In this document: piece by piece, positions 20,631-49,283 of the stretch | Layout: every line of letters starts with the position of its first letter | Numbering within the stretch: the first letter of the stretch is position 1 | Assembly: GCA_016196035.1 (NCBI GenBank) | Contig: JACPYM010000095.1 | Span: 62,001-126,000 of the forward strand | Length of the DNA: 64,000 nt | DNA from: Acidobacteriota bacterium | GTDB lineage: Bacteria > Acidobacteriota > Blastocatellia > RBC074 | Direction: 5' to 3' | Position numbers and translations under genes: made by a program | Notes under the pieces: model-generated | Told to the model about the DNA's origin: nothing | Database searches by the model: none | The model's input: the letters and a program-made list of their open reading frames with translations, nothing else

Positions 20631-20986
20631 TGCGATGCCGGCGGAAACGCCGGGAAGCTAGCGCGGTTTTCAGTTCAATGCCGGAGGAAGCGCCGCCGTG
20701 GGTGGGACAAGCTGGCATCCCAAATCCACGGTTAAGCAGTTGAAATCACAGTTTCGACCAATAGCAGCGGGCTTTTTTGTCAGCCTGGCTATTCACCCAG
20801 GGAGTGAAATTGCGCCGCCGTACAGCAGACTGCCAGTCTGCTGTAGACGCGGCCAGTGGGCTATTCGCCGAGACTACAGCAGACTGGCAGTCTGCTGTAC
20901 GGTTTTAGCCGTGGATTCAGGATGGCATCTTGTCCCACGCTCAATCCTCCACGCATTTGCGGCAAGCCAATGAAAGGAAGAAGTGT
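20631..20986. other. 356-bp spacer between anti-sigma and CHAT genes filled by nested palindromes
   Basis: Apart from the nested element at 20698-20942, only a short GC-rich stretch and the CHAT ribosome-binding site (GAAAGGAAG, about seven bases before the ATG) are seen. No gene is supported. Confidence 0.6.
20698..20942. repeat. Nested palindromic element (outer arms plus inner palindrome)
   Basis: The outer arms at 20698-20733 (GTGGGTGGGACAAGCTGGCA onward) and 20908-20942 are inverted copies, and both contain CCACGG and GGACAAG-type blocks. Inside lies a second inverted pair at 20819-20902, with arms of the type TACAGCAGACTGCCAGTCTG. This looks like one MITE-like unit carrying another. 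Confidence 0.75.
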
Positions 20987-23900
20987 ATGAACAAGCCCCG
21001 CGCCAATCCATTGCTACTGGCCGGCTGGATGTTTTGCCTGTGCGCCGCCGCTGTCGGGCAACAACAAGACAATACGCTCCTCTTGCCAGCGTCGCCGGTC
21101 GAACGCGAAATCGCGGGCGGACAAGCTCATCACTATCAAATCACGCTGCTGACCGGGCAAAGCCTGAAGCTCAAAGCCGAACAACAGGGCAGCGATGTTA
21201 TCCTGACGCTGTTCAGCCCGGAAGGGCAGCAGCTTGCCGAAGCAAACCTGCCGAATGGAACCAGGGGGTTGGAATGGCTGCTCTGGTTGCCGCAACGCAA
21301 TGGCGCTTACCAACTCAAAGTCACGTCAAACGACAAAGGCGCAACGGCGGGCCGTTATGTCCTCAGCGCCGAAGTCGCGCCAGCCGATGAAAAAAACGTG
21401 CTGGCGATTCAAAAATTTAACGAGGGGATGCAGTTGCGCAAAACCGGTCAGCGTGAATCATTCCCGCAGGCGTTGCGCAGCTTCGCCGAAGCCCTGACGG
21501 CTTGGCGCGCCGCCGGTGATCGTGGGCTGGAGGCCAGTACCTTGCAGCAACTCGGCGGGGTCAGCGGACGCGCCGGCAATCATCAACAAGCCCTCGACTA
21601 TTACCAACAGGCCCTGGCGCTTTTCCGCGCGCTGGAACTGAAACCGGAACAGGCGGAGGTGCTGAGTAACATCGCCGACAGATATGCAGCGTTGGCGGAG
21701 CTGCCGAGCGCGCTGGAATACTACCAACGGGCGCTGGCGCTCCGGGAATTTCTCGCGCCGCTCAATGTGGGCATTCTGTTGGATAACCTCGGCCAGGTGT
21801 ATGCCAATCAGGGCGATTATCGAAAGGCGCTGGCCGCGCATCAACAGGCGCTGGCGCTGTTTCAGGAACTGGGCGCGCGGAAAGACGAACTGGTGACGTT
21901 GCCGCGGATTGCCAGAGTGCAACGGCTGTTGGGAGACTATGCCCAGGCGCTGGCTTGGCTGAATCGGGGGCTGGCACTCAGCCGGGAACTGAAAGCGCCG
22001 GTCGAGGAATCATTCAACTTGCAACAGCTCGGACAGCTTTACGCCGTCTCCGGCGACCAAGCGCGCGGGGTCGAATATCTGGAACGCGCGGCAGCGGTTT
22101 GCCGCGCCGAAAAAAGCCGCTCGTGCGAGATGAATGCGGTGAATCAGTTGGGGCAGCTTTACAAAGACCAGGGCGCGTCTGACAAAGCGCTGACCGCGTT
22201 CAATGAAGTGCTCGCTTACTTTGGCGAGCTTGGCAGCCGGGTTTCTGAAGCCGTCACCAAAGGACACCTCGGCGACATTTTGGCAGCGCAAGGCGAGTAC
22301 CCACAGGCGTTGTCCTATCAGAACCAGGCCCTCGCTACTTTACGAACTGTTGGGGCGCGCCAGGCGCTGGTCGTGCGGCTCATTCGGACGGCGGAAACTT
22401 ACCGGAACGCCGGGCAGCCCGAAAAGGCCAAAGAGTTACTGACAGAAGCGGCCACCGCTAATCAGGACATTGGGAGCCGGAGTGATGAGGCGCAGATTTT
22501 CCGCGCGCTGTCTGCACTCGCGCGCGATGAAGGCCAACTGCAACCGGCGCGCGAACTGATCGAAAAATCGTTGCTGGCGATTGAGCGCCAGCGGACCGGC
22601 GCGCTTACGCCAGCGTTGCGCGCCACCTTCGGCGTGTTCCTGCACCGTTACTATCAGGACTACGTCGAAATTTTGATGGCTTTGCACGCGCAGTCGCCAA
22701 CAGCAGGCTATGCCGCGCTGGCGCTGGGCGCGCATGAACGTGTCCGGGCGCGCAGTCTGCTGGATTTGCTGAGCGAAGCGCGCGTGGAGTTGCGGACGGG
22801 CGTTGAGCCGGCGTTGCTGGAAAAAGAACGCTTGTTGCAGGAACAGGTGAACGCCCGCGAAACGTTGCGCCGCCAGTTGTTGGAAAATCAACGGACTGCC
22901 GCACGCGCCAAGGCGTATGAGCCGGAAATCAGCGACCTGCTCACTCAACTCCAAACCGTCGAAACGCAAATTCGCGCGGCAAGCCCGCGCTTTGCCGCGC
23001 TGACGCAACCCGCCCCGCTCACGCCCGCCGCTCTTCAGCAGCGCGTGCTGGATGACGACACGTTGCTGCTCGAATACGCGCTCAGCCCCCAACGCAGTTA
23101 TTTGTGGGCGGTGACGACGCAGGAACTGCACAGTTTCGTTTTGCCCGACGTGGGCGTGATCGAAGCCGCCGCGCGCCGCTGGCTCGACCTCTTGCCGAAA
23201 GGCACGCAGCGCAAATATCAGCGCGAAACCGAACTCGCCGCCGCCGAACTGAGCCGCTTGATCCTCGCGCCCGCCGCCGCGCATTTGCATAAAAAACGGC
23301 TGGTGATCGTGGCGGATGGGCTGTTGCAATACGTGCCGTTCGCCGCCTTGCCGGTTGTCGGTAGTCAGTTGCCGGTTGTCGGTAAAAACTTAGTTCCTAA
23401 CCGACAACCGACAACCGCTAACCGGCAAACCTTGCTTGCCCGCCACGAACTCGTCAGCTTGCCCTCGGCTTCGGCGCTGGCGGTGTTGCGCAACGAAATC
23501 AACGGGCGTCCGGCGGCCGCCAAACAACTCGCCGTCTTTGCCGATCCCGTTTTTCAAGCCGGCGATGCGCGCGTGCAACTGGCCAAGACCACGGCGCCCG
23601 GCACCACAAAGATGACGGAAAGCGCAAAAGATTTGGCCGCGCAAGCGCTGACGCGCGCCGCCGCCGAGGCGGGCCTGACAAGCTTCGCGCGGCTGCCTTT
23701 CGCGCGTCAGGAGGCTGAAACCATCGCCAAGTTGCTGCCGCCGGCGCAGCAGTTGAAAGCGCTGGATTTCACGGCCAGCCGCCAAACCGCGCTGACCGGC
23801 CAACTCAATCAATACCGCCGCCTGCATTTCGCCACGCACGGCCTGCTCAACAGCCAGCATCCGGAATTGTCGGGCATCGTGCTCTCGCTGGTGGATGAGG

Positions 23901-24262
23901 CGGGTCAGGCACAGGACGGGTTTTTGCGCCTGAGCGATTTGTACAACCTCAAGCTCAATGCCGACCTGGTCGTGCTCTCGGCCTGCCAAACGGCGCTGGG
24001 CAAAGACGTGCGCGGCGAAGGCCTGGTTGGGCTGACGCGCGGCTTTATGTTCGCCGGCGCGGCGCGCGTCGTGGCGAGTTTGTGGAACGTCAACGATGCC
24101 GCGACCGCCGCACTGATGCAGCATTTTTACCGCGCCATGCTGATCGAAAAGCTGACCCCCGCCGCCGCCTTGCGCGCCGCCCAACTGGCGCTGGCGCGCG
24201 ACCCGCGCTGGGCCGCGCCGTATTACTGGTCGGGCTTCGTGTTGCAGGGGGAATGGAAATGA
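20987..24262 (+). CDS. CHAT-domain (caspase-like) protease with TPR array
   Basis: A 1091-residue protein. Signal peptide (LLLAGWMFCLCAAAVG), then a beta-rich domain to about 130 resembling a pre-peptidase domain (QAHHYQITLLTGQSLKLKAE), a TPR array from about 140 to 530 (recurrent ALDYYQQALALFRAL and NLGQVYANQGDYRKAL patterns), a linker helix region, and a C-terminal CHAT domain. The catalytic pair is visible: His951 in LHFATHG and Cys1000 in LSACQT, followed by GEGLVGLTRGFMFAGAARVVASLW. CHAT proteins are cysteine peptidases of the caspase clan, used in regulated proteolysis or cell death. A heptamer hairpin is read through near residues 788-815. The start has GGAAG six bases upstream. Confidence 0.93.
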   Translation: MNKPRANPLLLAGWMFCLCAAAVGQQQDNTLLLPASPVEREIAGGQAHHYQITLLTGQSLKLKAEQQGSDVILTLFSPEGQQLAEANLPNGTRGLEWLLWLPQRNGAYQLKVTSNDKGATAGRYVLSAEVAPADEKNVLAIQKFNEGMQLRKTGQRESFPQALRSFAEALTAWRAAGDRGLEASTLQQLGGVSGRAGNHQQALDYYQQALALFRALELKPEQAEVLSNIADRYAALAELPSALEYYQRALALREFLAPLNVGILLDNLGQVYANQGDYRKALAAHQQALALFQELGARKDELVTLPRIARVQRLLGDYAQALAWLNRGLALSRELKAPVEESFNLQQLGQLYAVSGDQARGVEYLERAAAVCRAEKSRSCEMNAVNQLGQLYKDQGASDKALTAFNEVLAYFGELGSRVSEAVTKGHLGDILAAQGEYPQALSYQNQALATLRTVGARQALVVRLIRTAETYRNAGQPEKAKELLTEAATANQDIGSRSDEAQIFRALSALARDEGQLQPARELIEKSLLAIERQRTGALTPALRATFGVFLHRYYQDYVEILMALHAQSPTAGYAALALGAHERVRARSLLDLLSEARVELRTGVEPALLEKERLLQEQVNARETLRRQLLENQRTAARAKAYEPEISDLLTQLQTVETQIRAASPRFAALTQPAPLTPAALQQRVLDDDTLLLEYALSPQRSYLWAVTTQELHSFVLPDVGVIEAAARRWLDLLPKGTQRKYQRETELAAAELSRLILAPAAAHLHKKRLVIVADGLLQYVPFAALPVVGSQLPVVGKNLVPNRQPTTANRQTLLARHELVSLPSASALAVLRNEINGRPAAAKQLAVFADPVFQAGDARVQLAKTTAPGTTKMTESAKDLAAQALTRAAAEAGLTSFARLPFARQEAETIAKLLPPAQQLKALDFTASRQTALTGQLNQYRRLHFATHGLLNSQHPELSGIVLSLVDEAGQAQDGFLRLSDLYNLKLNADLVVLSACQTALGKDVRGEGLVGLTRGFMFAGAARVVASLWNVNDAATAALMQHFYRAMLIEKLTPAAALRAAQLALARDPRWAAPYYWSGFVLQGEWK
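23349..23431. repeat. Heptamer-armed hairpin inside the CHAT gene
   Basis: The left arm has 7-bp units TTGCCGG, TTGTCGG, TAGTCAG and TTGCCGG, TTGTCGG; the right arm has the inverted AACCGAC, AACCGAC, AACCGCT, AACCGGC. It lies in frame and encodes a low-complexity V/G/N/R/Q segment between the TPR-to-CHAT linker and the CHAT domain. It is a repeat insertion tolerated by the protein. Confidence 0.85.
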
Positions 24263-30678: not shown

Positions 30679-32610
30679 TCAAAGAATCTCGCGCGCCTCG
30701 CCGACGCGCCGCGTCACGCGCAACCGGTCGAGGTGTTCGAGTAACGGGATCGCGTATTTGCGTGAGATACCGGTCAGGTCTTTGAACGCGCCGACTTCCA
30801 GTTTGGGGCCGTGTTGGGCTTTGTGTTGTTGCAGCAGCGGGCGCAATCCTTCGAGCGCTGTGCGGTGAAAGAGCAGATCGCTGACGCGCACCAGTTCGCC
30901 GCTGTTGATCAGCATCTGGGCGAAACGTTGCGCGCGGGCGTTGTCAATGCCGTGTTGCGGCCCCAGTGCTGACAACGCCTGCGCAATGGCTTGTTCCAGC
31001 GCGAGCGGTTGCAGCGCGGCGTCGGCGTAAAGTTTGGCGAGGTGATCTTTGGCGGCTTGCTCTTCGGCTGTGAGCGCGACCTTGTGCGAGGCGAGGCGCA
31101 GCAAGTCTTTTTCGGCGGCGACCTCGTTGCGTTCGGCCAGTTGGGTGATGACGGCGCGGAAGATGTCGGCGTGCGTATGGGCGAAGAGCTTTTCGCGCAA
31201 CTCTTCGCGGCCCATCCCGGCGGCGAGCGGCGTCTTTTGGTGGAACTCTTTCAGCGTCGCGCGCACCTGTTTCGCCAACTCTTCAAACGGCGTTTTGGCA
31301 AGCAGGCGCAATGGCGTGCTGGCGATGGTGAGCAGGCGTTTGCTCTTCGTCCATTTGTCCGCTGCTTGTTTGATGACCGCATCAGGCGCGCCTGAACGCG
31401 CGGCTAGCTCGGCGTAATCAAGCCCGGCTTCGCCCGCCAGTTCGACCAACAACGCCAGCCGTTCAGGCGCATCGGCAATCGTCAACGCCGCGAGTTGTGC
31501 GACGACTTTGGCTTTGGCGCGCGCGCGATGTTTGTGGGGCAGCGCGTCAACGACCGTGCCGCCGCCGATGGTGACGGTGGGCGAATAGCTGCGCGCGATG
31601 AAATGATCGGTGGGCAGCGCGAGCACCGGCGCTTCCAAACGCAATTGGGCAAAGCCCGCCGCGCCGGGGGCGAGTTCGGTGGCTTCGAGCAACACGACGC
31701 GCGCCAACGCTTCGGCTGTGCCGATGTGCAGGTGTATGCGCGCGCGCGAACGCAACGGGCGCGGCGCGGTTTTGAGCAGTTGCAAACGCACATCCAGCAA
31801 TTGCGTGGCGCGCAAACGGCCCGCGGGCGCGAGCGTTTGGCCGCGCGCGACGGCGTCGAGGTCAATGCCTTGCAGATTGATGGCCGTGCGTTCGCCGGCG
31901 AAAGCTTCGTGCGTGCCTTTGCCGTGCACTTGTAAGCCGCGAGTCTTGGCGCGCAGCGTATTCGATGGATAAACCTCCAACTCATCGCCCGTCTTGATCT
32001 GTCCGGCGACGAGCGTGCCAGTGACGACGGTGCCGAAGCCTTTGATCGTAAAGACGCGGTCAATCGGCAAACGCGCCACTGCGGCCTTGTCGCGTTCGGT
32101 AACTTGTTTCGCCAGCTCGGCCAGCGTCTTTTTCAACTGCTCAATGCCCGCGCCGGTTTTGGAACTGACGCGCAGGATGGGCGCATCGGCGAGAAACGAG
32201 TCGGCGACATATTCGCTGACTTCGGCCTCGACCAGTTCGGCGAATTCATCATCCACCATGTCGCACTTGGTGATGACGATCAGGCCGGCTTTGATTTCGA
32301 GCAGGCGGCAGATGTCGAAATGTTCGCGCGTTTGCGGCATCAGACTCTCGTCTGCCGCGACGACCAGCATCACCAAATCGAGACCGTGCGCCCCCGCGAG
32401 CATGTTTTTGACGAAGCGTTCGTGACCCGGCACGTCTACAAAACCGAAGTGCACATCGCCCACGGTCAGGTCGGCAAAGCCAATATCAATCGTGATGCCG
32501 CGCTCTTTTTCCTCTTTGAGACGGTCGGCATCCACGCCCGTCAGGGCTTTGACGAGCGCGGTCTTGCCGTGGTCGATGTGTCCGGCGGTGCCGACGATGA
32601 TACGTTTCAT
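30679..32610 (-). CDS. selB: Selenocysteine-specific translation elongation factor SelB
   Basis: A 643-residue protein, normal size for SelB. The GTPase domain has [35 protein letters not shown] and VITKCDMVD in the expected order, and the N-terminus GHIDHGKT with [12 protein letters not shown] separates SelB from EF-Tu. Domains II and III follow, then four winged-helix modules (from about residue 390) that bind the SECIS element of selenoprotein mRNAs. It delivers selenocysteyl-tRNA to the ribosome at UGA codons. selA, selD and tRNA-Sec are not in the window. A small gene ends 14 bp upstream and is probably co-transcribed. Confidence 0.96.
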
Positions 32611-33422: not shown

Positions 33423-36400
33423 ATGGAATTGCAATCCGGGATGAACACACCAACAGAATCGAACAAGAAAAAATGGCCCCGGCGTTTGCTGGGTTTGAGT
33501 TTGGGATTGCTGCTGTTAGTAGGCGCGCTCGGCATTGCCGCCTGGTATTACCTGCGTTCCGACAGGTTTAATCGTTATGTCGCCGACAAGATCGAACAGG
33601 GCGCGCGTGATTACGGCTTGCGCGTCAAAGTCGGCGGCTTTGATTACACCTGGTCGGTCAAGACGGCGCGGTTGCGCGACCTCGAAATCGTCAATCAACA
33701 AACGGGGCAGCGCATCGCCACGATCAAACAGGCCGTGCTCGGCACCGAAATCCCCGACCTCTTTGCGCTGACCTTGCAACGCAATGTCATTCTGAAAGAC
33801 CTGCAACTCAGCGGCGTTGAACTGCACGTTGACATTGACGCGCAAGGCCGCCACAACTTTGAAGGTGTGCGCCAGCCGGAAACGAGGTCCGAGAACATCA
33901 AAGTGGATTCGTCGCAGTTGCGCATTGCGCTGCGCGACAGCCAGTTCAGCTACAACGACCAGAAACACCTGTACACCACCACGCTTGAGGGATTGCAGGC
34001 GCGCGTTGAGCCTGTTGCCACAACACCCAATCTCCAATCTCCAATCTCAAATTTCAAAGCGCAGATCACTTCCAACGGCGGCAGCATTAGTTATGAAGCG
34101 CGCGCGGCCAGGCTAAATGAATTGACCGCAACGGCGACGCTCAACGCCTCTGGCGCGCAAATCGAAAGCCTGCAAGTCAACTCGCAACTCGGCGCAGTGA
34201 AAGCCAGCGGCAAGCTCGAAGAGTGGAAGGACTTGCGCTATGCCTTTGATGTCGAAACGCGCGCCGATTTGCACGAGGCGTTGCGTGTCTTTGCGCCTGC
34301 GGTTGATTGGAAAGGCGCGGTCAATGCCAAGGGCCAGATCGCAGGCACGACCGGCGACGCGGCGCGCTTTGCGTTCAAGGGCAATGCCGACATGCCCGAC
34401 TTGCTGGTCGCGCCCGCCCGCTTGCGCAATGTGACGGCGAGTGGCGTCAACCTCAGCGTGCAAAACAGCGCGGCGCATTACACCGCCGACCGCGTGCGTG
34501 CCGAAACCGTCCTGGCCGATGTGGTCAAACTCGGCAACATGGCGACGACCGGCGTCAAAGGCGAATTCAAAGACAAACGCACGGCGCTGACCGCGCAAAC
34601 CGCCACTGCCGCGCGCCTCGAATGGCCCGACGGAGAGGCGCATGACGGCGTGTTGCGCAACGTCAATTTCAATCTCAAAGAGCGCCGCTTCACCGTGGAC
34701 GGCGCGGCCAGCATCGCGGGTGGCCGCGCCCACAGCATCGAATTCGGCCCCGCGACGGCGCAGGCCGAAGCCGACAACGACATCGTGACGCTCAATAACA
34801 TCAACGCCAGCGCGTTGGGCGGCACGGCGACAGCGGAAGCGACCGTTGCCTTAACCCGTAACGGCCTGACGCGCATCAAGGGCAATTTCGCCGGTCTGCC
34901 GACGAGCAATTTGCTGGCGCTCTCAACCGTCAAAGCCGAGCAGGTGCCCGTCAGCGGCACGGTCAAGGGCGACGCCGACATCAGTTTCGTCAACAGCGCG
35001 CCGCAAAAATTGAGTGGCACAATTCGCGCCAACTTCGACGGCAAAGGCGCCGCGAGCATGGACGCGCTGGCTGTCAACGGCACTGTGCTGGTGCAAGCCG
35101 ACAATGGCGTCTTCAACCTGCAACAGGCGCAATTCAACACCGATGTGACCAAACTGAATGCCAGCGGGCGCCTGGCTGTGGAGAGCAACTCCGATTTGGC
35201 GGTGGCGGTCACCACGACTGATGCCAGTCAATTGTTGACGATTGCCAAAGCCTTTCCTGACGCCGCGCAATTCATCAAAGACTATGAACCGCTATTGACC
35301 GGCGACCTGCAATTCAACGGGCGCATTACGGGCAAGCTGGATGCGTCTGTCATCGAAGGCGATCTCAACGCCAGCAGCGTCGGCATGCGCGATGCCTTGC
35401 TGGGCGTGCTGACCGGCAAGCTGTATCTGGGGCCAAACGAATTGCGCTTCCAAAACGGCTTGCTCAGCGCGTCGAATGGCGGTTCGCTGAAATTCGATTT
35501 GGCGACACCCTTGGATGCGCTGGGCAATAACAACAGCGGCAAACTCGACGCGGTCATTGACAAGCTTGAACTCGAAGCCATTTTGGCCGCCGTGGGCGCG
35601 CCCTCGGCCATGCAATTCGTCGCGGGCAATGTCAGCGGCGAGGCGCATCTGACCGGCTTGCCCAAAGCGATGCAGGGTAGCGGGCACATCAATCTGATTG
35701 ACGGCAAGATTGGCAATCAAGCGGCGGAACTGGCCCAGGTTGATTTCAAGCTCGACGGCCAAAAGGTCTTGCTTGAAAAACTGGAAGCGCGCCTGTTGCA
35801 AAGCGGCCTCGTGGCGCGCGGCGAACTCGACCTGGAAAAGAAAACCTACCAACTCAGCGGCGCGGCCAAACAGATTGCGCTCGACCGGCTGGCCGAAGCC
35901 TTTGAATTGACCCAGGCGGAAGTCAAAGGCGCGGCGGACGCCACCTTCAACGTCAGCGGCTCATTCGACCGCGTCGAAGATTTGCGCGTTGAACTCAGCG
36001 CGCAGGCCGCCAACGTCAACGTCAATGGGCGCGACAGCGGCGAATTGAAGCTGACCGCGCGCACTGATCCCAGTGGACGCATTGACGCCGAATTGATGAC
36101 GGGCTTGTTTGTCGCGGCGGGCGGCCAGCCGCAACTGGTCAAAGCCAGCTTCGACGTGCGCAAGGATGGTCGCCCCGTCGTGATCGAGAGCGCTGTGCGC
36201 GACCTAGACCTGGTGGCGGTGCTCAACACTTTTGCGCCCGATCTGGCTTCGTCATTCAAGGGCAAATTCAACGGCAAGCTGCGCATCGCCGGGCCGACGG
36301 TCAACGCCAGCGGCGAAGCGACCGCCGATCTGTTGCGCGGCGGCGTGACCTTTGACGCGATTGAGTTGCAGGTGCAGGGCAATCCGGTCACGGTGCAAAC

Positions 36401-39400
36401 GCCGCTGGTCGTCGCGCTGGAAGGGCCGCAACTGCGCATCACGCCGACCAAACTGACCGGGCAGGGCATTGACCTGAGCCTCGGCGGCGAACTCGGCTTG
36501 CAGGACACGGGCCGCATGGCCTTCGCCTTGAACGGGCAGGTGACGCTGGCGAATCTGCCGCCGGTCAGCCCTGAGTTGCGCTTGGATGGCGTGGTGACGA
36601 TCAACAACGCGCGTATCAGCGGCACCTTTGCCGAGCCGAGTTTGAGTGGCGAAATCCTGCTCGACCGCATCGGCATCTTTTCGCCTGACGCCCCGGCTGC
36701 TGTCGAGGAAGGGCGTGGGCGCATTGTGCTTAGCGGCGATAAAGCGACGCTCGAAAGTTTCAAGGCGCGCATCAACGAGGGCGCGCTCGATGTCAACGGC
36801 GCGCTGACCTTCGCCCAACTGCGGCCCAAAGAATGGAATTACACGCTCAAGGCCACCAACGTTGACATCATTTATGCCGAAGTGCGCGCGACCGTGAACG
36901 GCACGCTCAATCTGGCGGGCACGCCCGAAGGCCAATTGCTGAGCGGGCGCGCCGATGTGAGCGATGCCGAATACACCGGCCAGATTGATCTGGATGGCTT
37001 GGTCGCCGGGCGCAACATCGCGCCGGGCTTGAGCCGTTTTAGCGCGCCGGGCATCGGGCGGCGCAACCCTGGCTTGCCGCCGATCAATTTGAATGTGCGC
37101 GTCGAAGCGCGCGATTCGGTCGTCATCCGCGACAAAGAGATCAATACCGTCGGTTCGGCGCTGCTGACCTTGAGCGGGCCGCTGACCGATCCTTCGATGG
37201 CGGGGCGCGTTTCCGCCGATGGCGGGACGGTGCGCTTTCGCGGCCAGCGTTACGAAGTCACGACGGCGACGCTTGATCTGTTGGGCGGCGGCGCGACGCC
37301 CGTGCTCAACCTGCGCGCCGAAGGCACGACCAGCGGTTATCGCGTGACCATCGGTTTTGTCGGGCCGGTGGATCAGCTCGATCTGACGCTGGCGTCTGAA
37401 CCCACGCTGACGCGCGATGAAATCCTGACGCTGATTGCGACGGGACGCACGGAAAATCGTTCGATTGCAGGCGGCGGCAGCGGCAGTCTGCTTTATAGCG
37501 GCGTGGATGCGGCGGCGTCGTTGTTCTCCTCCGGCTTGACCAAAGATTTAGAACGGCAACTGGGCATCATTGGCATCAACCGTTTCCAGATTGATCCGGT
37601 CTTCCGGCCCAACACCAACCCGGCGGCGCGCGCGACCATCGGCGGCCAGTTGGCGCGCAGCCTCTATTACAGCTTCGCCACCGATCTCGCCTCCGAAGGC
37701 GACCGCACGGCGCTGGTCGAATACACGTTCTCAAATACGTTCTCGACGATTGCGACTTATACGCAGGGCGGCACGGCGTCACGTGGCATTAATGCCAACA
37801 ACGATTTCGCCCTGGAAATTCGCGGGCGCAAACGCTTCTCGCTGGGGTTCAAGCCCGATACGCCGACGCTGGCGAATACCGACCCGAACGCCAATGCCAA
37901 CGCGACCCCGCCACCTGCTGTACGGCCCAAATTGCCGCTGGCCAATGTCGCCGTGACGCCGCTGACCGGCGTGTCGCTGAGCCAGCGCACCTTGCGCGAA
38001 TTGCTGCCGGTGATGACGCAGGGTTTCAGCCGTTCGCTGGCGCGCCTGGGCGAACGGCGCTTGCTGAATTACCTGCAAGAGAAGGGCTACTTTTTTGCCG
38101 ACGTCAAAGCGCGTTGTGAACCTGTCAGTTGCGGCGGCGATGGCTTGCAACTGTTTTACGATGTCGAGGCGGGCGAACGTTACCGGCTCAGCGATGTGCG
38201 GTTTGAAGGCGTGACGGCTTCAAAGGTGGACGACATCGCCGCCGAATTGCAGTCGCAACCGGCCAATCTGTTGGCGAGCGTGCCGTTCGTCCGCAACCTG
38301 CCGCTGGTGGGCAGCTTGAAACGCGGCCTGACCAGCAATGAATTGATCCGTGGCGATGTCGAGACGCTCCGGCGCGTCTTGCTGGATCGCGGCTTCCGCG
38401 ACGCGCGCGTCACGTCGCGTTACGCCGTCACCGAAGAGAATGGTTTGGTGCTGGTCTTCAACGTCGAAGAAGGCCCGCAATCGCGCGTGGCCGATGTGAT
38501 CATCAAAGGCAACACGCTGATGACCGACGGCGATGTGCTTTTCACGGTGCCCATTGGCACGGACGACATCTTCTCGTTGACGCAGGCGGCGGCGGGCACG
38601 CAGCGCATCAAACAGCTTTACGCCCAGCAGGGCTATCTGGAAGCGAACGCCGAACTGGAAGTGATCGAACTGGCCCCGGATCGCGTGCGGCTGCAATACA
38701 ACGTCACCGAAGGCACGCAGGCGCTCGTCTCCGAAGTTGAAGTCACCGGCACGACCAAAACCAAACTCAACTGGGTGCGCCGCTACTACGATTTCAAAAC
38801 CGGCCAGGTGCTGACGCCGCAGCAGATTCGCAACACACAACGCGATCTTTACGCCACGGGCGCGTTCCGCGAAGTCGGCTTGCGCAGCGAATTGCTCGAC
38901 CCCGTCACGGGCGCGCACCGCATCACACTGAATCTGACCGAAGCCAAACCGCTGCTGTTTGTTTATGGCGCGGGTTATTCGACCGACGACGGCGCGCGCG
39001 GCCTGATCGAACTGACCAACAACAACATCGCCGGCACGATGGATGCGCTGACCTTGCGGTTGCGCGCCAGCCGCCGCGAACAATTCTCGCAATTGCTCTT
39101 TACCGATCTGCGGCCCTTCGGCATGAAGCTGCCGACGACGGTTTCGGTCTTTTACAATCGCAACGGCGACTTGCGCCCATCCACCCGGCGGCGCGAGCAA
39201 CTGGCCGATGGCACGGTGCAGGATGTGCCGGATGTTGCTTCGTTCGGCCTGCAACGTTTTGCTTTTTTTGTGCAAACCGAGCGCCGGCTGAATCAGCGAA
39301 CTTCGCTGCGCTTCCGCTATAACTTCGAGCGCGCCAACCTGTTCAACTTCGAGCAGAACTTCCCTGAGACGGAAGTGACGCGCAATGAACGCGCGGTGCG

Positions 39401-40112
39401 CTTGGGCATCGCGTCCGTCGGCATTACGCGCGACACCCGCGACAATTTGTTGTTGCCGACCAAGGGCCAACTGTTCAGCGCCGATCACCAACTGGCCACG
39501 ACGTTGCTAGGCGGCAACGAATCGTACAACAAGTTTTTCATCAATTATCAACGCTTCCACACGCTCGCGCGCGAGACGCCCGTGCTCAAGGATTCGACGC
39601 TGGCGGTGGCGGCGCGTCTGGGCGTGGCGTCAGTGTTCAAAGCTGCCGACCGCAACGGCGACGGTGTCATCAGTCTGTCAGAGCAACGCTTGCCGATCAG
39701 CGAGCGGTTCTTTTCGGGCGGCGCGACGACCTTGCGCGGGTTCAAATTCGAGACCGCCGGGCCGCAAGGCATTTTGGAACCGCGTCCGGGCACGCGTGAT
39801 TTGCCAACGCTGGTGCCGTTGGGCGGCGATGCCGAAGTGCTCTTCAATTTTGAACTGCGCTACCCGTTGACGCAGCGGCTGCGGCTGGTGCCGTTTTATG
39901 ATGTCGGCAACGTGTTCTATCAGGTCAAGGATATAAACTGGGCGCGCATGACAAACACGATAGGCGTCGGGTTGCATTTCAATACGCCGCTGGGGCCGAT
40001 TGGGGTGGATTACGGCTTCCTGCTTGACCCGCCATCGTTCGTCACGGCGTCCGGTGCTATACTGCGGCAACCACGCGGAGCAATCCATATTCGATTCGGA
40101 CAAACATTCTAG
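33423..40112 (+). CDS. TamB-Omp85 (TamA/BamA-like) fusion protein
   Basis: A 2229-residue protein. An inner-membrane anchor (RRLLGLSLGLLLLVGALGIAAWYYL, residues 20-43) is followed by a long AsmA/TamB-like repetitive beta region; the DUF490 domain ends near 1470 (LTLASEPTLTRDEILTLIATG). A Pro/Asn-rich linker (about 1475-1510) leads to about four POTRA-like domains to about 1840 (YRLSDVRFEG, VADVIIKGNTLM, VSEVEVTGTTKTK), then a 16-strand-type barrel at 1843-2229. The barrel holds the loop-6 motif LRGF near 2106 and ends in IHIRFGQTF, a terminal aromatic as in OMPs. From family knowledge TamB and TamA form an export and lipid-transport bridge; here both are in one chain. Start could instead be ATG 33441, which overlaps an upstream TGA. 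Confidence 0.93.
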   Translation: MELQSGMNTPTESNKKKWPRRLLGLSLGLLLLVGALGIAAWYYLRSDRFNRYVADKIEQGARDYGLRVKVGGFDYTWSVKTARLRDLEIVNQQTGQRIATIKQAVLGTEIPDLFALTLQRNVILKDLQLSGVELHVDIDAQGRHNFEGVRQPETRSENIKVDSSQLRIALRDSQFSYNDQKHLYTTTLEGLQARVEPVATTPNLQSPISNFKAQITSNGGSISYEARAARLNELTATATLNASGAQIESLQVNSQLGAVKASGKLEEWKDLRYAFDVETRADLHEALRVFAPAVDWKGAVNAKGQIAGTTGDAARFAFKGNADMPDLLVAPARLRNVTASGVNLSVQNSAAHYTADRVRAETVLADVVKLGNMATTGVKGEFKDKRTALTAQTATAARLEWPDGEAHDGVLRNVNFNLKERRFTVDGAASIAGGRAHSIEFGPATAQAEADNDIVTLNNINASALGGTATAEATVALTRNGLTRIKGNFAGLPTSNLLALSTVKAEQVPVSGTVKGDADISFVNSAPQKLSGTIRANFDGKGAASMDALAVNGTVLVQADNGVFNLQQAQFNTDVTKLNASGRLAVESNSDLAVAVTTTDASQLLTIAKAFPDAAQFIKDYEPLLTGDLQFNGRITGKLDASVIEGDLNASSVGMRDALLGVLTGKLYLGPNELRFQNGLLSASNGGSLKFDLATPLDALGNNNSGKLDAVIDKLELEAILAAVGAPSAMQFVAGNVSGEAHLTGLPKAMQGSGHINLIDGKIGNQAAELAQVDFKLDGQKVLLEKLEARLLQSGLVARGELDLEKKTYQLSGAAKQIALDRLAEAFELTQAEVKGAADATFNVSGSFDRVEDLRVELSAQAANVNVNGRDSGELKLTARTDPSGRIDAELMTGLFVAAGGQPQLVKASFDVRKDGRPVVIESAVRDLDLVAVLNTFAPDLASSFKGKFNGKLRIAGPTVNASGEATADLLRGGVTFDAIELQVQGNPVTVQTPLVVALEGPQLRITPTKLTGQGIDLSLGGELGLQDTGRMAFALNGQVTLANLPPVSPELRLDGVVTINNARISGTFAEPSLSGEILLDRIGIFSPDAPAAVEEGRGRIVLSGDKATLESFKARINEGALDVNGALTFAQLRPKEWNYTLKATNVDIIYAEVRATVNGTLNLAGTPEGQLLSGRADVSDAEYTGQIDLDGLVAGRNIAPGLSRFSAPGIGRRNPGLPPINLNVRVEARDSVVIRDKEINTVGSALLTLSGPLTDPSMAGRVSADGGTVRFRGQRYEVTTATLDLLGGGATPVLNLRAEGTTSGYRVTIGFVGPVDQLDLTLASEPTLTRDEILTLIATGRTENRSIAGGGSGSLLYSGVDAAASLFSSGLTKDLERQLGIIGINRFQIDPVFRPNTNPAARATIGGQLARSLYYSFATDLASEGDRTALVEYTFSNTFSTIATYTQGGTASRGINANNDFALEIRGRKRFSLGFKPDTPTLANTDPNANANATPPPAVRPKLPLANVAVTPLTGVSLSQRTLRELLPVMTQGFSRSLARLGERRLLNYLQEKGYFFADVKARCEPVSCGGDGLQLFYDVEAGERYRLSDVRFEGVTASKVDDIAAELQSQPANLLASVPFVRNLPLVGSLKRGLTSNELIRGDVETLRRVLLDRGFRDARVTSRYAVTEENGLVLVFNVEEGPQSRVADVIIKGNTLMTDGDVLFTVPIGTDDIFSLTQAAAGTQRIKQLYAQQGYLEANAELEVIELAPDRVRLQYNVTEGTQALVSEVEVTGTTKTKLNWVRRYYDFKTGQVLTPQQIRNTQRDLYATGAFREVGLRSELLDPVTGAHRITLNLTEAKPLLFVYGAGYSTDDGARGLIELTNNNIAGTMDALTLRLRASRREQFSQLLFTDLRPFGMKLPTTVSVFYNRNGDLRPSTRRREQLADGTVQDVPDVASFGLQRFAFFVQTERRLNQRTSLRFRYNFERANLFNFEQNFPETEVTRNERAVRLGIASVGITRDTRDNLLLPTKGQLFSADHQLATTLLGGNESYNKFFINYQRFHTLARETPVLKDSTLAVAARLGVASVFKAADRNGDGVISLSEQRLPISERFFSGGATTLRGFKFETAGPQGILEPRPGTRDLPTLVPLGGDAEVLFNFELRYPLTQRLRLVPFYDVGNVFYQVKDINWARMTNTIGVGLHFNTPLGPIGVDYGFLLDPPSFVTASGAILRQPRGAIHIRFGQTF
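34028..34057. repeat. Heptamer run (CAATCTC) inside the TamB region
   Basis: Three CAATCTC units followed by degenerate AAATTTC, in frame near residues 203-212 of the TamB-Omp85 protein. No inverted partner is evident nearby. Confidence 0.7.
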
Positions 40113-40150
40113 CGCTCCGGCTTGGCTCCGACTTGGAGGAGGTAGGAAAG

Positions 40151-40501
40151 ATGGATGTGATGTTTTCTCCCGAAATAGAGAAAAAAGTCATGGCGACAGC
40201 GGCCCGGCAAGGCCTCGCCCCAGATGCCTATGTGCGTGAAGTAGTGCAAAAAGAATTGGCTGCTGTAAGCGTACCAACAGACCATGACGATGACTATGAT
40301 CCGCAAGCGTTGATGCGGGCCGTCGCCGCCCTCAGCCAGCGCACGCCCGCGCAACTCGAAGCTGCGCAGGCCAGAGCCATCCGCGAGTTCAAGCCAAAAA
40401 TTGAATTGCCCGCAGATGTTTCCCCGCTCGAAGTGCTGCCAGTCATTCGCGGCAACGAAACCGACGCGGAGGTCTGGCAAGCGTTGCGGGAGTTGAGTTG
40501 A
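40151..40501 (+). CDS. Putative VapB-like antitoxin
   Basis: A 116-residue protein. A short helical N-terminus (MDVMFSPEIEKKVMATAARQ, then APDAYVREVVQKEL) could be a ribbon-helix-helix DNA-binding or dimer unit, with an acidic, proline-rich tail. Its stop overlaps the start of a PIN-domain toxin gene in TGATG. ATG 40151 follows AGGAGGT by about eight bases. VapB-type partners bind their toxin through the C-terminal tail and repress the operon. Direct sequence recognition is weak; the identity rests mostly on position. Confidence 0.7.
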   Translation: MDVMFSPEIEKKVMATAARQGLAPDAYVREVVQKELAAVSVPTDHDDDYDPQALMRAVAALSQRTPAQLEAAQARAIREFKPKIELPADVSPLEVLPVIRGNETDAEVWQALRELS

Positions 40502-40938
40502 TGGCGACGCTCTTTTTGTTCGACACGAACCTGCTGGTACATCTGGTGCGCGGCGATGCGATGGGTGAAGAAATCAAAGCCGAGTACGCGCCTTTTACAC
40601 GCGACCCCAAGCCGCTGATTTGCGTGGTGACGGATGGGGAATTGCGCTCCCTGGCATTACAATTTGGTTGGGGCGCACCCAAGCTGAACCAAATGGAATT
40701 TGTGCTGGGCTGTTTTGGCCGTGTTCCCATCGAACTGAGAGACGTTTTGGAAACCTATGCCGCGCTGGATGCCCATTCGAAATCGCAGGGCATCAAGATG
40801 GGCAAAAATGATTTATGGATTGCGGCGGCGGCCTACATCACCGGCACCAGGCTGGTAACGACGGATGATGATTTTGACCATCTCAATCCGACGCTGTTGT
40901 TGGTTGAACGGCGGCTGTATCGCCAAGTCAAATCATAG
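40501..40938 (+). CDS. PIN-domain toxin (VapC-like ribonuclease)
   Basis: A 145-residue protein. The first acidic residue lies in FLFDTNLLVHLVRGD; the central glutamate lies in VVTDGELRSLALQFGW, and the late acidic residues in MGKNDLWIAAAAYITGTRLVTTDDDFDHL. This is the PIN-domain pattern of metal-dependent RNases (three to four acids). VapC toxins cleave tRNA or rRNA and are held inactive by their antitoxin. The start overlaps the antitoxin stop (TGATG), which favours translational coupling. RNA target not predictable. Confidence 0.88.
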   Translation: MATLFLFDTNLLVHLVRGDAMGEEIKAEYAPFTRDPKPLICVVTDGELRSLALQFGWGAPKLNQMEFVLGCFGRVPIELRDVLETYAALDAHSKSQGIKMGKNDLWIAAAAYITGTRLVTTDDDFDHLNPTLLLVERRLYRQVKS

Positions 40939-46463: not shown

Positions 46464-49283
46464 TCAATTTGCTTTTGGGCCTTTTGAGCCAGGCCGGGCG
46501 GGTGTCTTTTGAGAAGGCGCATTTTGTTCGTAGGGCATCTGCTTCAATTCAAGCTGGGGTTCGTAAGCCGCCAGGGTGGGAATCCAAACCTCGAATTTGC
46601 CGCGCGCTTCGTTGGCGTAACGCTCGCCGAGAAAGATCGGTTGCAGGGCCAGCTTGATGCGGTTCTTGAGCAGGACGCGCTGGATTTGCATGCGGATGGT
46701 GTCGGCGGTCTTTTGATCTTCGACATAAAAATAGCGCACATCGCCGACGGTGCGGGCATTCGGGATGGTTTGCACTTTTTCGATCACGAAGCGTTTGCCC
46801 AGGGCTGCGGTAATCGGGGGCGTGAAGCGTTTGGCGTCCTCATCGTTTTGAAAATGTAGGAAGACGCGATTGGTCACAACTGGCGTGACTTCCACCGCAC
46901 CCAGGCGGCGCAATTCCTGCTTGGCAATCTGGCTCTTGTTGGGGTCGAGTGGCAATTCGGCGGACTTGCGGTAATCGGCAACGGCGCGCGCACGGTCGCT
47001 GCGCAATTGGGCGAGTTGGGCGCTGTTGAAATAGGCCTCGCCGTAATCAACTTTGAGTTGAACGGCGCGGTCGAAATCGTTTTGCGCCTGATCGAATTGT
47101 TTGAGTTGCACCCGCGCGCTGCCCCGGCTGTTATACGCCTCGGCCAAGCGCGCATCGCTTTCGATGGCTTTGTTATAACTGGCCTGCGCCGCCTCAAATT
47201 GTTTGAGCGCGACCTGGGCATTGCCCAGGCTGAGATAGACCTGGGCCTGAGCCGAAGCCGTACCCGCACCTTTCGCCAAAGCTTGTTGATAATCGCGGAT
47301 GGCAGCTTCGTAATTGCCCAGTCCTTGCTCGGCGTTCGCGCGCGTGAAATAGGCGGCGGCGAGTTGCGGCGTGGCGTCCAGGGCTTTGCTGGCGAAATCA
47401 ATGGCCGCTTTGTAATCTTCGAGCGCCGCTTTGGCGTCACTGTTTTTCTTGCCGTTTTCGTAATAGCCCTGCGCTTTGAGTTGATTGGACTTGGCCTCTT
47501 CCTCTTTCGTATGGGGCTGCACGGTAGTGCCTGAGTTCGGATCAACAGGCGATGCGGTGCGGGTGCGCAGCAGACTGTAAACGCCGATGAAGCCGAGCAG
47601 CACCACCGCCGCCAATACCAGCAGGCCCCAGCCGATACGGCGCTTGCTAACTGTTTCTGCATACGCCTGCGAGGTGCGCAGTTGGGCTTGCATCTGCTGT
47701 TGCTGCTGCATCTGGGCGGCGCTGATTTGAATGTAATCGCTCTCGGCCTGATTCAGATCGGCGGCGCGTTTGGTTTGCCAGCTTTGCGCAACCTCCAGCA
47801 ACGCGCCGCTCAACAGCGCGCCCTGATCGCGTTGCGTGCGTTCCCAGGCGGCCATGCTGGTACGCAGGAATTGCCGCCAGAACAAAAAGTCGTAATCGTC
47901 TTTGAGCCATTGGCCCAGCCGCGTCCAACCCTTCACGGCTTTTTCGTCGGCGAGTTGCACAGTCGCGTCGTTGCTGCGGGCTTCGCCCGTGATATTGACG
48001 ATGCGGGCGGCAGCCAGCTTCTCGATGATTTGCCGCTCGTCGCCGAATTCATCCAGGCGCAACCGATTGCGTGTGTATTCGCCTTCCTGATTGGGCGGGG
48101 TCAACCGCACCAGGCGTTTCAACACGCGCGCGGCCAGGTCTTGCTCGCTCGGCGCAAAGACGCTGAACGCGATTTCCATGCGATTGTCTACTTCCACCAA
48201 CGGCAAGCGGTCGCCGAAGAGCTTGGCCATCTCCGGTTCCAGTTTGTGCCAGATGGCCTGATTGCTTTCGCCGCGCGCGAGCAGGCCCAGATGCAGCGAA
48301 ATCTTTTTATAGGCATCTTCCAACTCTTCGGCGCGGTCAGTCCGGGATTCTTTGGTTTGATTGGCGCTCTTGATGGCGAGCTTTTCGGCGTAGGCATATT
48401 TGGGCACGTAGGGGATGCGCAATTCCCAAAAATTCGTTTCCAGATTGTGAAAGGGCGCGGGCGTAAACGGATCGAGGTGTTGGCGGAAAAGCTGCTCGAA
48501 GGCATTGCGGTCGGCCAGTTCGCTGATGTCTATGCGCGTCGGCACGATCACCATATCGAGCGGGCGCTGGCGATGCTTGATGATTTCGGGCCGGGTAAAG
48601 GAGCGCGTCATCTCTTCGACGCCGCGCAGGTTTTGCGCATTGGGCACGCAGAACGACACTACGACATCGGCCATCTGCCGCGTGCAGACGCCGCCCATTT
48701 CGGTGACGCCCGTGCGGCTGTCAATCAACACAATGTCAATCCGGTTTTGCGTCAGCAACTGGCGGCGTAACCAATCGAAATAAAGTTCGCCTTGAAAGTC
48801 GGCATAAAAATCCGACCAGTCGAAAGTTTGCACGGCCTGGGCGTAAGCGGAAAACCGATCCTTGGCGCGCAAGCCGGCGGGCAACAGCCACAAGGCTCCC
48901 GCGCGCCCATCCGCAGCACTGCCGAGCGGGTGAATCGGATAGAGCGCCGTTGTGAGCGGCGTTAGATTTTCTTCGAGCATTTGCAGCGCTGCCACTTGCT
49001 CGGCGGACGTATACGCGCCGCTTTCCGCTTTCGGCCAGGGCAGGCGGGAGAACTGGCGTTTATAGGCGACCAGCAGATCAATCAGTCCCAGTTGTGACTG
49101 AATCAGTTCCAGGTTCGCGGCGTCTTCCGTCCGGCTGTAGAAATAGTTTTCCAGCCCCGGCGCTTCCAAATCCCAATCAATCATCACCACGCGCAGCCCC
49201 TGCAAATAAAACCATTCGGCCACGTTGGCAAGCGCCATCGAACGCCCGACGCCGCCTTTGTATGAATAGAAGGTGAAGATCAT
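46464..49283 (-). CDS. KGGVGR-type SIMIBI ATPase with STAND-like winged helix, TM helix and TPR tail
   Basis: A 939-residue protein. The N-terminal domain is MinD/ParA-like: Walker A variant YKGGVGRSMAL (K9, with R14 in place of the usual Lys), then VVMIDWDLEAPGLENY (D36, D38) and IVLIDSRTGVTEMGG. A central segment (about 365-540) resembles the winged helix and helical cap of STAND ATPases (VLKRLVRLTPPNQ, EKLAAARIVNITGEA, FLRTSMAAWERTQRDQGALL). A TM helix near 549-571 (LLVLAAVVLLGFIGVYSLL) is followed by TPRs at about 600-780 and a C-terminal domain with DVRYFYVEDQKTADTI. It starts 131 bp after the TIR gene on the same strand, the space holding a small R1-core palindrome. KGGVGR ATPases are often paired with TIR proteins; the joint role is inference. 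Confidence 0.9.
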   Translation of the reverse strand: MIFTFYSYKGGVGRSMALANVAEWFYLQGLRVVMIDWDLEAPGLENYFYSRTEDAANLELIQSQLGLIDLLVAYKRQFSRLPWPKAESGAYTSAEQVAALQMLEENLTPLTTALYPIHPLGSAADGRAGALWLLPAGLRAKDRFSAYAQAVQTFDWSDFYADFQGELYFDWLRRQLLTQNRIDIVLIDSRTGVTEMGGVCTRQMADVVVSFCVPNAQNLRGVEEMTRSFTRPEIIKHRQRPLDMVIVPTRIDISELADRNAFEQLFRQHLDPFTPAPFHNLETNFWELRIPYVPKYAYAEKLAIKSANQTKESRTDRAEELEDAYKKISLHLGLLARGESNQAIWHKLEPEMAKLFGDRLPLVEVDNRMEIAFSVFAPSEQDLAARVLKRLVRLTPPNQEGEYTRNRLRLDEFGDERQIIEKLAAARIVNITGEARSNDATVQLADEKAVKGWTRLGQWLKDDYDFLFWRQFLRTSMAAWERTQRDQGALLSGALLEVAQSWQTKRAADLNQAESDYIQISAAQMQQQQQMQAQLRTSQAYAETVSKRRIGWGLLVLAAVVLLGFIGVYSLLRTRTASPVDPNSGTTVQPHTKEEEAKSNQLKAQGYYENGKKNSDAKAALEDYKAAIDFASKALDATPQLAAAYFTRANAEQGLGNYEAAIRDYQQALAKGAGTASAQAQVYLSLGNAQVALKQFEAAQASYNKAIESDARLAEAYNSRGSARVQLKQFDQAQNDFDRAVQLKVDYGEAYFNSAQLAQLRSDRARAVADYRKSAELPLDPNKSQIAKQELRRLGAVEVTPVVTNRVFLHFQNDEDAKRFTPPITAALGKRFVIEKVQTIPNARTVGDVRYFYVEDQKTADTIRMQIQRVLLKNRIKLALQPIFLGERYANEARGKFEVWIPTLAAYEPQLELKQMPYEQNAPSQKTPARPGSKGPKAN

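Follow-up and report, generated by a model that had tools for sequence, protein, structure and literature searches.

In Proteobacteria, the translocation and assembly module (TAM) is made up of two proteins, encoded with tamA before tamB: TamB, which is anchored in the inner membrane and exhibits a beta-taco and an outer-membrane-protein-like C-terminus, and its partner TamA, an Omp85 protein with three POTRA domains and its own signal peptide. In chloroplasts, the TamB-like inner envelope protein TIC236 is bound to the POTRAs of the Omp85 protein TOC75, a pair of two proteins that serves protein import. For E. coli TamAB, cryo-EM has revealed a hybrid barrel that the first strand of TamA forms with the final strand of TamB (PMC12800296), and the system has been linked to phospholipid transport and to outer membrane protein insertion (PMC12800296, PMC11341756). 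The TamB of Borreliella works with a BamA-type Omp85 (PMC11361582), again as two proteins joined non-covalently, and in Bacteroidota TamB has a dedicated TamA-like Omp85, TamL, which is a separate lipoprotein. Tandem tamB and second BamA genes of Acidobacteriota have been described by Heinz et al. 2015 (PMC4494059), who make no mention of fusions in the passages searched. The Omp85 protein of these pairs has a signal peptide and as many as seven POTRAs. Our search of the open-access literature found no papers on natural TamB-Omp85 single chains, although domain databases may list the architecture.

In the stretch of DNA analysed here (the window: 64,000 nucleotides from a soil-type Acidobacteriota bacterium of the class Blastocatellia), both halves are encoded by one gene. 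Its direct relatives are the acidobacterial tandem genes, with which it shares the Omp85 group by tree and from which it differs in that those genes are separate. With the proteobacterial TAM it shares the anchored TamB, its beta-taco and C-terminus and a POTRA-bearing Omp85, whereas here there is one chain, with TamB first, four POTRAs and no second signal peptide. The TIC236-TOC75 pair is a likely analogue.

Domain architecture of the single-chain gene

The gene is one open frame with an ATG start, 2229 codons and zero internal stops, and encodes, from N- to C-terminus, a membrane anchor, a complete TamB, a 33-residue linker, four POTRAs and an Omp85 barrel:

33423..40112, + strand: single-chain TamB-Omp85 gene, 2229 aa (Pfam domains and orthologues)
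33480..33554, + strand: predicted N-terminal inner-membrane signal anchor, aa 20-44 (hydropathy, model helix, alignment)
33618..37400, + strand: TamB beta-taco, aa 66-1326 (structure models, residue alternation)
36756..37793, + strand: Pfam TamB domain PF04357, aa 1112-1457 (E 1.1e-34)
37581..37838, + strand: six outer-membrane-protein-like C-terminal TamB strands, aa 1387-1472 (alignment, model)
37839..37937, + strand: Pro/Asn-rich variable linker without signal peptide, aa 1473-1505 (alignment, model)
37938..39023, + strand: four POTRA domains, aa 1506-1867 (Pfam PF07244, E 1.8e-30; models; fold comparison)
39024..40109, + strand: Omp85 barrel, aa 1868-2229; loop-6 motif FFSGGATTLRGF, last residue Phe (Pfam, fold comparison)

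The initial annotation, made from the letters of the DNA, had described an uninterrupted frame containing an anchor, a TamB region, a Pro/Asn linker, POTRAs and a barrel with an aromatic end, and every part of this list proved correct. The domain search that it had proposed placed TamB, POTRA and Omp85 far above the curated Pfam cut-offs, and AlphaFold2 models (aa 1-1116, pLDDT 82.2, pTM 0.49; aa 1100-2229, pLDDT 75.7, pTM 0.66) displayed the beta-taco, the six C-terminal TamB strands, a disordered linker, the POTRAs and the barrel.

The TamB half begins with one strong hydrophobic segment (aa 20-44), which is also a helix in the structure model and is conserved in 12 orthologues; the orthologue alignment places a conserved Y/W-x-RS motif after it, and no A-x-A type cleavage site was seen there by eye. 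This segment is the predicted inner-membrane signal anchor expected of a TamB. The half is largely beta structure in the models: the beta-taco comprises ~70 predicted strands with alternating hydrophobic residues, and the hydrophobic/polar alternation exceeds that of shuffled strands (z 6.1), which fits a greasy groove. PF04357 membership is clear at 120.8 bits against a curated cut-off of 22.4. Fold similarity of the N-terminal half to the lipid-bridge proteins Vps13 and LPD-3 is weak, and no PDB chain was found to match its profile by sequence. The last strands are outer-membrane-protein-like, as in other TamBs, although here the Phe is followed by the linker and not by the C-terminus: the TamB part ends EIRGRKRF exactly where split TamBs of the class, ending RxRKRF, have their stop, and since the fused chains run on past this same F, TamB has been retained through its last residue.

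The Omp85 half combines POTRAs with a barrel, as is characteristic of the Omp85 superfamily (PF01103 at aa 1868-2205, E 2.9e-42), and the protein ends IRFGQTF. The four POTRAs structurally resemble BamA POTRA 2-5, and the whole half matches the folds of BamA from POTRA 2 on, TamA and Sam50 (Z 20-22; 20-21 for BamA and TamA); the TamAB cryo-EM chains are not among the fold matches listed. By profile it scores best with BamA rather than TamA, in both cases below the equivalog cut-off: 261.1 bits against 297.15 for BamA (TIGR03303), with four POTRAs and not five, and 76.5 bits against 625 for proteobacterial TamA (NF047950), with four POTRAs and not three. It belongs to the acidobacterial "second BamA" group and, by profile, not to proteobacterial TamA. 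Just before the loop-6 motif, the barrel exhibits an EF-hand-like loop, DRNGDGVIS (aa 2070-2087; window 39630-39683), a possible calcium site; similar acidic loops are present in most of the 12 orthologues and are degenerate in three (G427, G009, G307).

Linker and junction of the two halves

The linker (aa 1473-1505, SLGFKPDTPTLANTDPNANANATPPPAVRPKLP, 33 residues) is predicted to be disordered, with a pLDDT of ~32 at its centre. In the alignment of orthologues, a conserved TamB end (E-I/L-RGRxRFSLG) is followed by the linker and then by a conserved POTRA start, LRELLPVMTQGFSRSLARLGERRL; the linker itself varies in both sequence and length (roughly 25-35 residues in Blastocatellia). Split Omp85s carry classical cleavable signal peptides with A-x-A-Q type ends, whereas no comparable hydrophobic segment was found at the junction of the fused proteins; nearly all fused chains are without such a stretch past the anchor, with a few exhibiting moderately hydrophobic stretches elsewhere. 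Against split Omp85s of 973-1149 aa, the alignment of the window's Omp85 half begins only near residue 290-390; this half has therefore lost a signal peptide and some three POTRAs on its N-terminal side, and thus nothing at the junction would be able to start a new Sec export.

The initial annotation had allowed for a missed stop near 37850-37950 and for homologues that are always split. All 162 Blastocatellia-class genomes sampled were scanned: 13 gave a strong match, 11 of which (the window's included) encode both halves in one uninterrupted frame, with the matches in the remaining two (G420, G421) cut by contig ends. One genome (G423) carries two different fused TAM genes (L124, L129), and L037 and G307, being the same gene, were counted once. 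The same in-frame junction in 10 further orthologous genomes disposes of both concerns: covalent coupling of TamB and Omp85 is conserved among relatives, and the fusion is not peculiar to the source organism. Shared synteny with G275 (SelB, the fused gene, a zinc-ribbon protein and CorA) supports orthology. Several split relatives do have just one in-frame stop between the two genes, where one base error could mimic a fusion; however, an assembly or sequencing artefact joining adjacent genes is here a negligible prospect, as the junction recurs in independent genomes at 46-50% identity and loss of a stop alone would not have removed the signal peptide and the roughly three POTRAs that the fused chains lack. 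Third-position GC remains at 0.69-0.81 in the same frame throughout the fused gene, junction included.

The same linker raises the question of whether the product is one precursor that is cut in the periplasm to yield TamB and Omp85 as two ordinary proteins in equal amounts. A variable, Pro/Asn-rich and predicted disordered segment is a typical protease-accessible stretch, and with the last TamB strand ending exactly at the split TamB end, cleavage would release near-normal parts. Nevertheless, 12 linkers share no conserved cleavage motif and exhibit no signal peptidase type site, and in many members of a second group of fusions, found in other classes, the linkers are only ~15-20 residues long (by eye): we regard such processing as unlikely, and infer instead that the chain stays uncleaved.

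Several other genes of the window lie close by. The SelB (selenocysteine elongation factor) gene at 30679-32610 adjoins the fused gene and has 75% identity in G275. Directly downstream lies a PIN-domain protein gene (40498-40938) beside a small unknown ORF (40133-40501); neither was seen at the syntenic place in G275, and together they are a possible toxin-antitoxin insertion. The neighbourhood also holds a TPR-CHAT protein (20930-24262) and an nSTAND1-TPR protein (46464-49283), which belong to signalling or protease-like families.

Distribution and origins of the fusion

Across the phylum, at least 35 of the 159 genomes drawn, from at least 23 families, carry a TamB frame no shorter than 2019 aa, and in all 35 listed genomes both halves were found in one frame at the DNA level; in L070, the end of the Omp85 half continues in a different frame. 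Six further candidates with frames of 2273-2835 aa (G086, G197, G114, G283, G235, G074) were rejected, since their DNA showed two separate genes with either a short gap or one in-frame stop between them. Within the split loci fetched, gene order is tamB then omp85 in 50 of 51, the single omp85-tamB case being L106, and the two genes are sometimes separated by just one in-frame stop codon. In L092, L093, L094 and L095, a single stop codon is all that divides the frame shared by split tamB and omp85; read-through there could yield a longer fusion in which a signal peptide would lie internally. Judged by frame length, none of the TamBs of Nitrospinota (present in 11 of 60 genomes) is fused.

The initial annotation had further proposed that a normal TamA would be unnecessary. 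For the window's own genome (96.9% complete) this holds: the one TamB above cut-off is the fused one, and the other Omp85s are a canonical BamA, encoded in the usual bamA-skp-lpxD-fabZ-lpxA operon, and a 469-aa barrel protein without POTRAs (L119 8163-9572). It may not extend to three relatives (G009, G427, G307), which hold a separate split pair besides the fusion. The co-occurrence of fused and separate TamB in these three and in 15 or so other genomes would fit a fusion that acts as an additional TAM specialised on one substrate, in place of a general one. This is rather improbable, however. In 19 of the 35 listed fusion genomes, among them the single-contig genome G059, and in the window's genome the fused TamB is the only TamB match, the remaining listed genomes having one or two additional ones; nor is any substrate-like gene conserved alongside, the neighbours shared with G275 being SelB, the zinc-ribbon protein and CorA.

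In the Omp85 tree, the window group (window, G275, G009, L037) is nested among split pairs of its own class and is well removed from the fused group that other classes form (26 members). Forcing all fused rows into one group lowers the log-likelihood by 155 units in the AU test for Omp85 (p 9e-52), and, independently, a single origin costs 59 units for the TamB halves (p 4e-4). These tests left out L052, the TamA of E. coli, and the fusions from families f17 and f29. Both E. coli TamA and these fusions sit on long branches, and the fusions may represent further origins. L052, which the first tree showed as a split Omp85, was discarded as evidence of splitting: a contig edge cuts its start, and its TamB part breaks off at a different contig edge. 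To keep to one ancestral fusion, several separate fissions would have to be assumed, with the signal peptide and identical additional POTRAs regained every time, which makes at least two fusions the simpler account. With the trees of both halves rejecting one origin, the fusion appears to have arisen at least twice from tandem tamB-omp85 genes. Comparison with the split pairs shows that a tandem operon became the fusion as the Omp85 half shed its signal peptide and roughly three POTRAs at its N-terminus; in Blastocatellia this happened independently of an older fusion elsewhere in the phylum.

Proposed working of the fused chain

Taken together, the gene probably encodes a complete TAM as one polypeptide spanning both membranes, which by homology should act like E. 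coli TamAB. Sec would insert the uncleaved N-terminal signal anchor into the inner membrane, with the remaining 2180 residues exported, and the TamB beta-taco is predicted by the models to form a long periplasm-crossing groove lined with hydrophobic residues. Homology with E. coli TamAB suggests that the last TamB strands may dock within the chain, on strand 1 of its own Omp85 barrel. The linker would then connect the final TamB strand, at its periplasmic end, with the first POTRA; as it would start at that end of the docked strand, docking in cis is topologically conceivable. The Omp85 half would fold into the outer membrane to give one chain integral to both membranes in a 1:1 ratio, a stoichiometry that is fixed assuming no later cleavage, and we infer that the machine helps to insert outer membrane proteins and/or to pass phospholipids. 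The full combination, an uncleaved chain integral to both membranes with a cis hybrid barrel of the last TamB strand and its own Omp85, evolved convergently at least twice, we consider evenly balanced between right and wrong.

There has been long debate about whether the C-terminus of TamB extends to the Omp85 barrel in the outer membrane, and about the ratio of the two partners. The fused gene offers a fixed-stoichiometry construct for structure and transport assays, and poses a question of topogenesis: the chain would be held in the inner membrane, yet its C-terminal barrel must enter the outer membrane. Above all, a natural single chain that appears to have evolved at least twice would provide direct evolutionary evidence for a one-to-one arrangement with the TamB C-terminus at the barrel.
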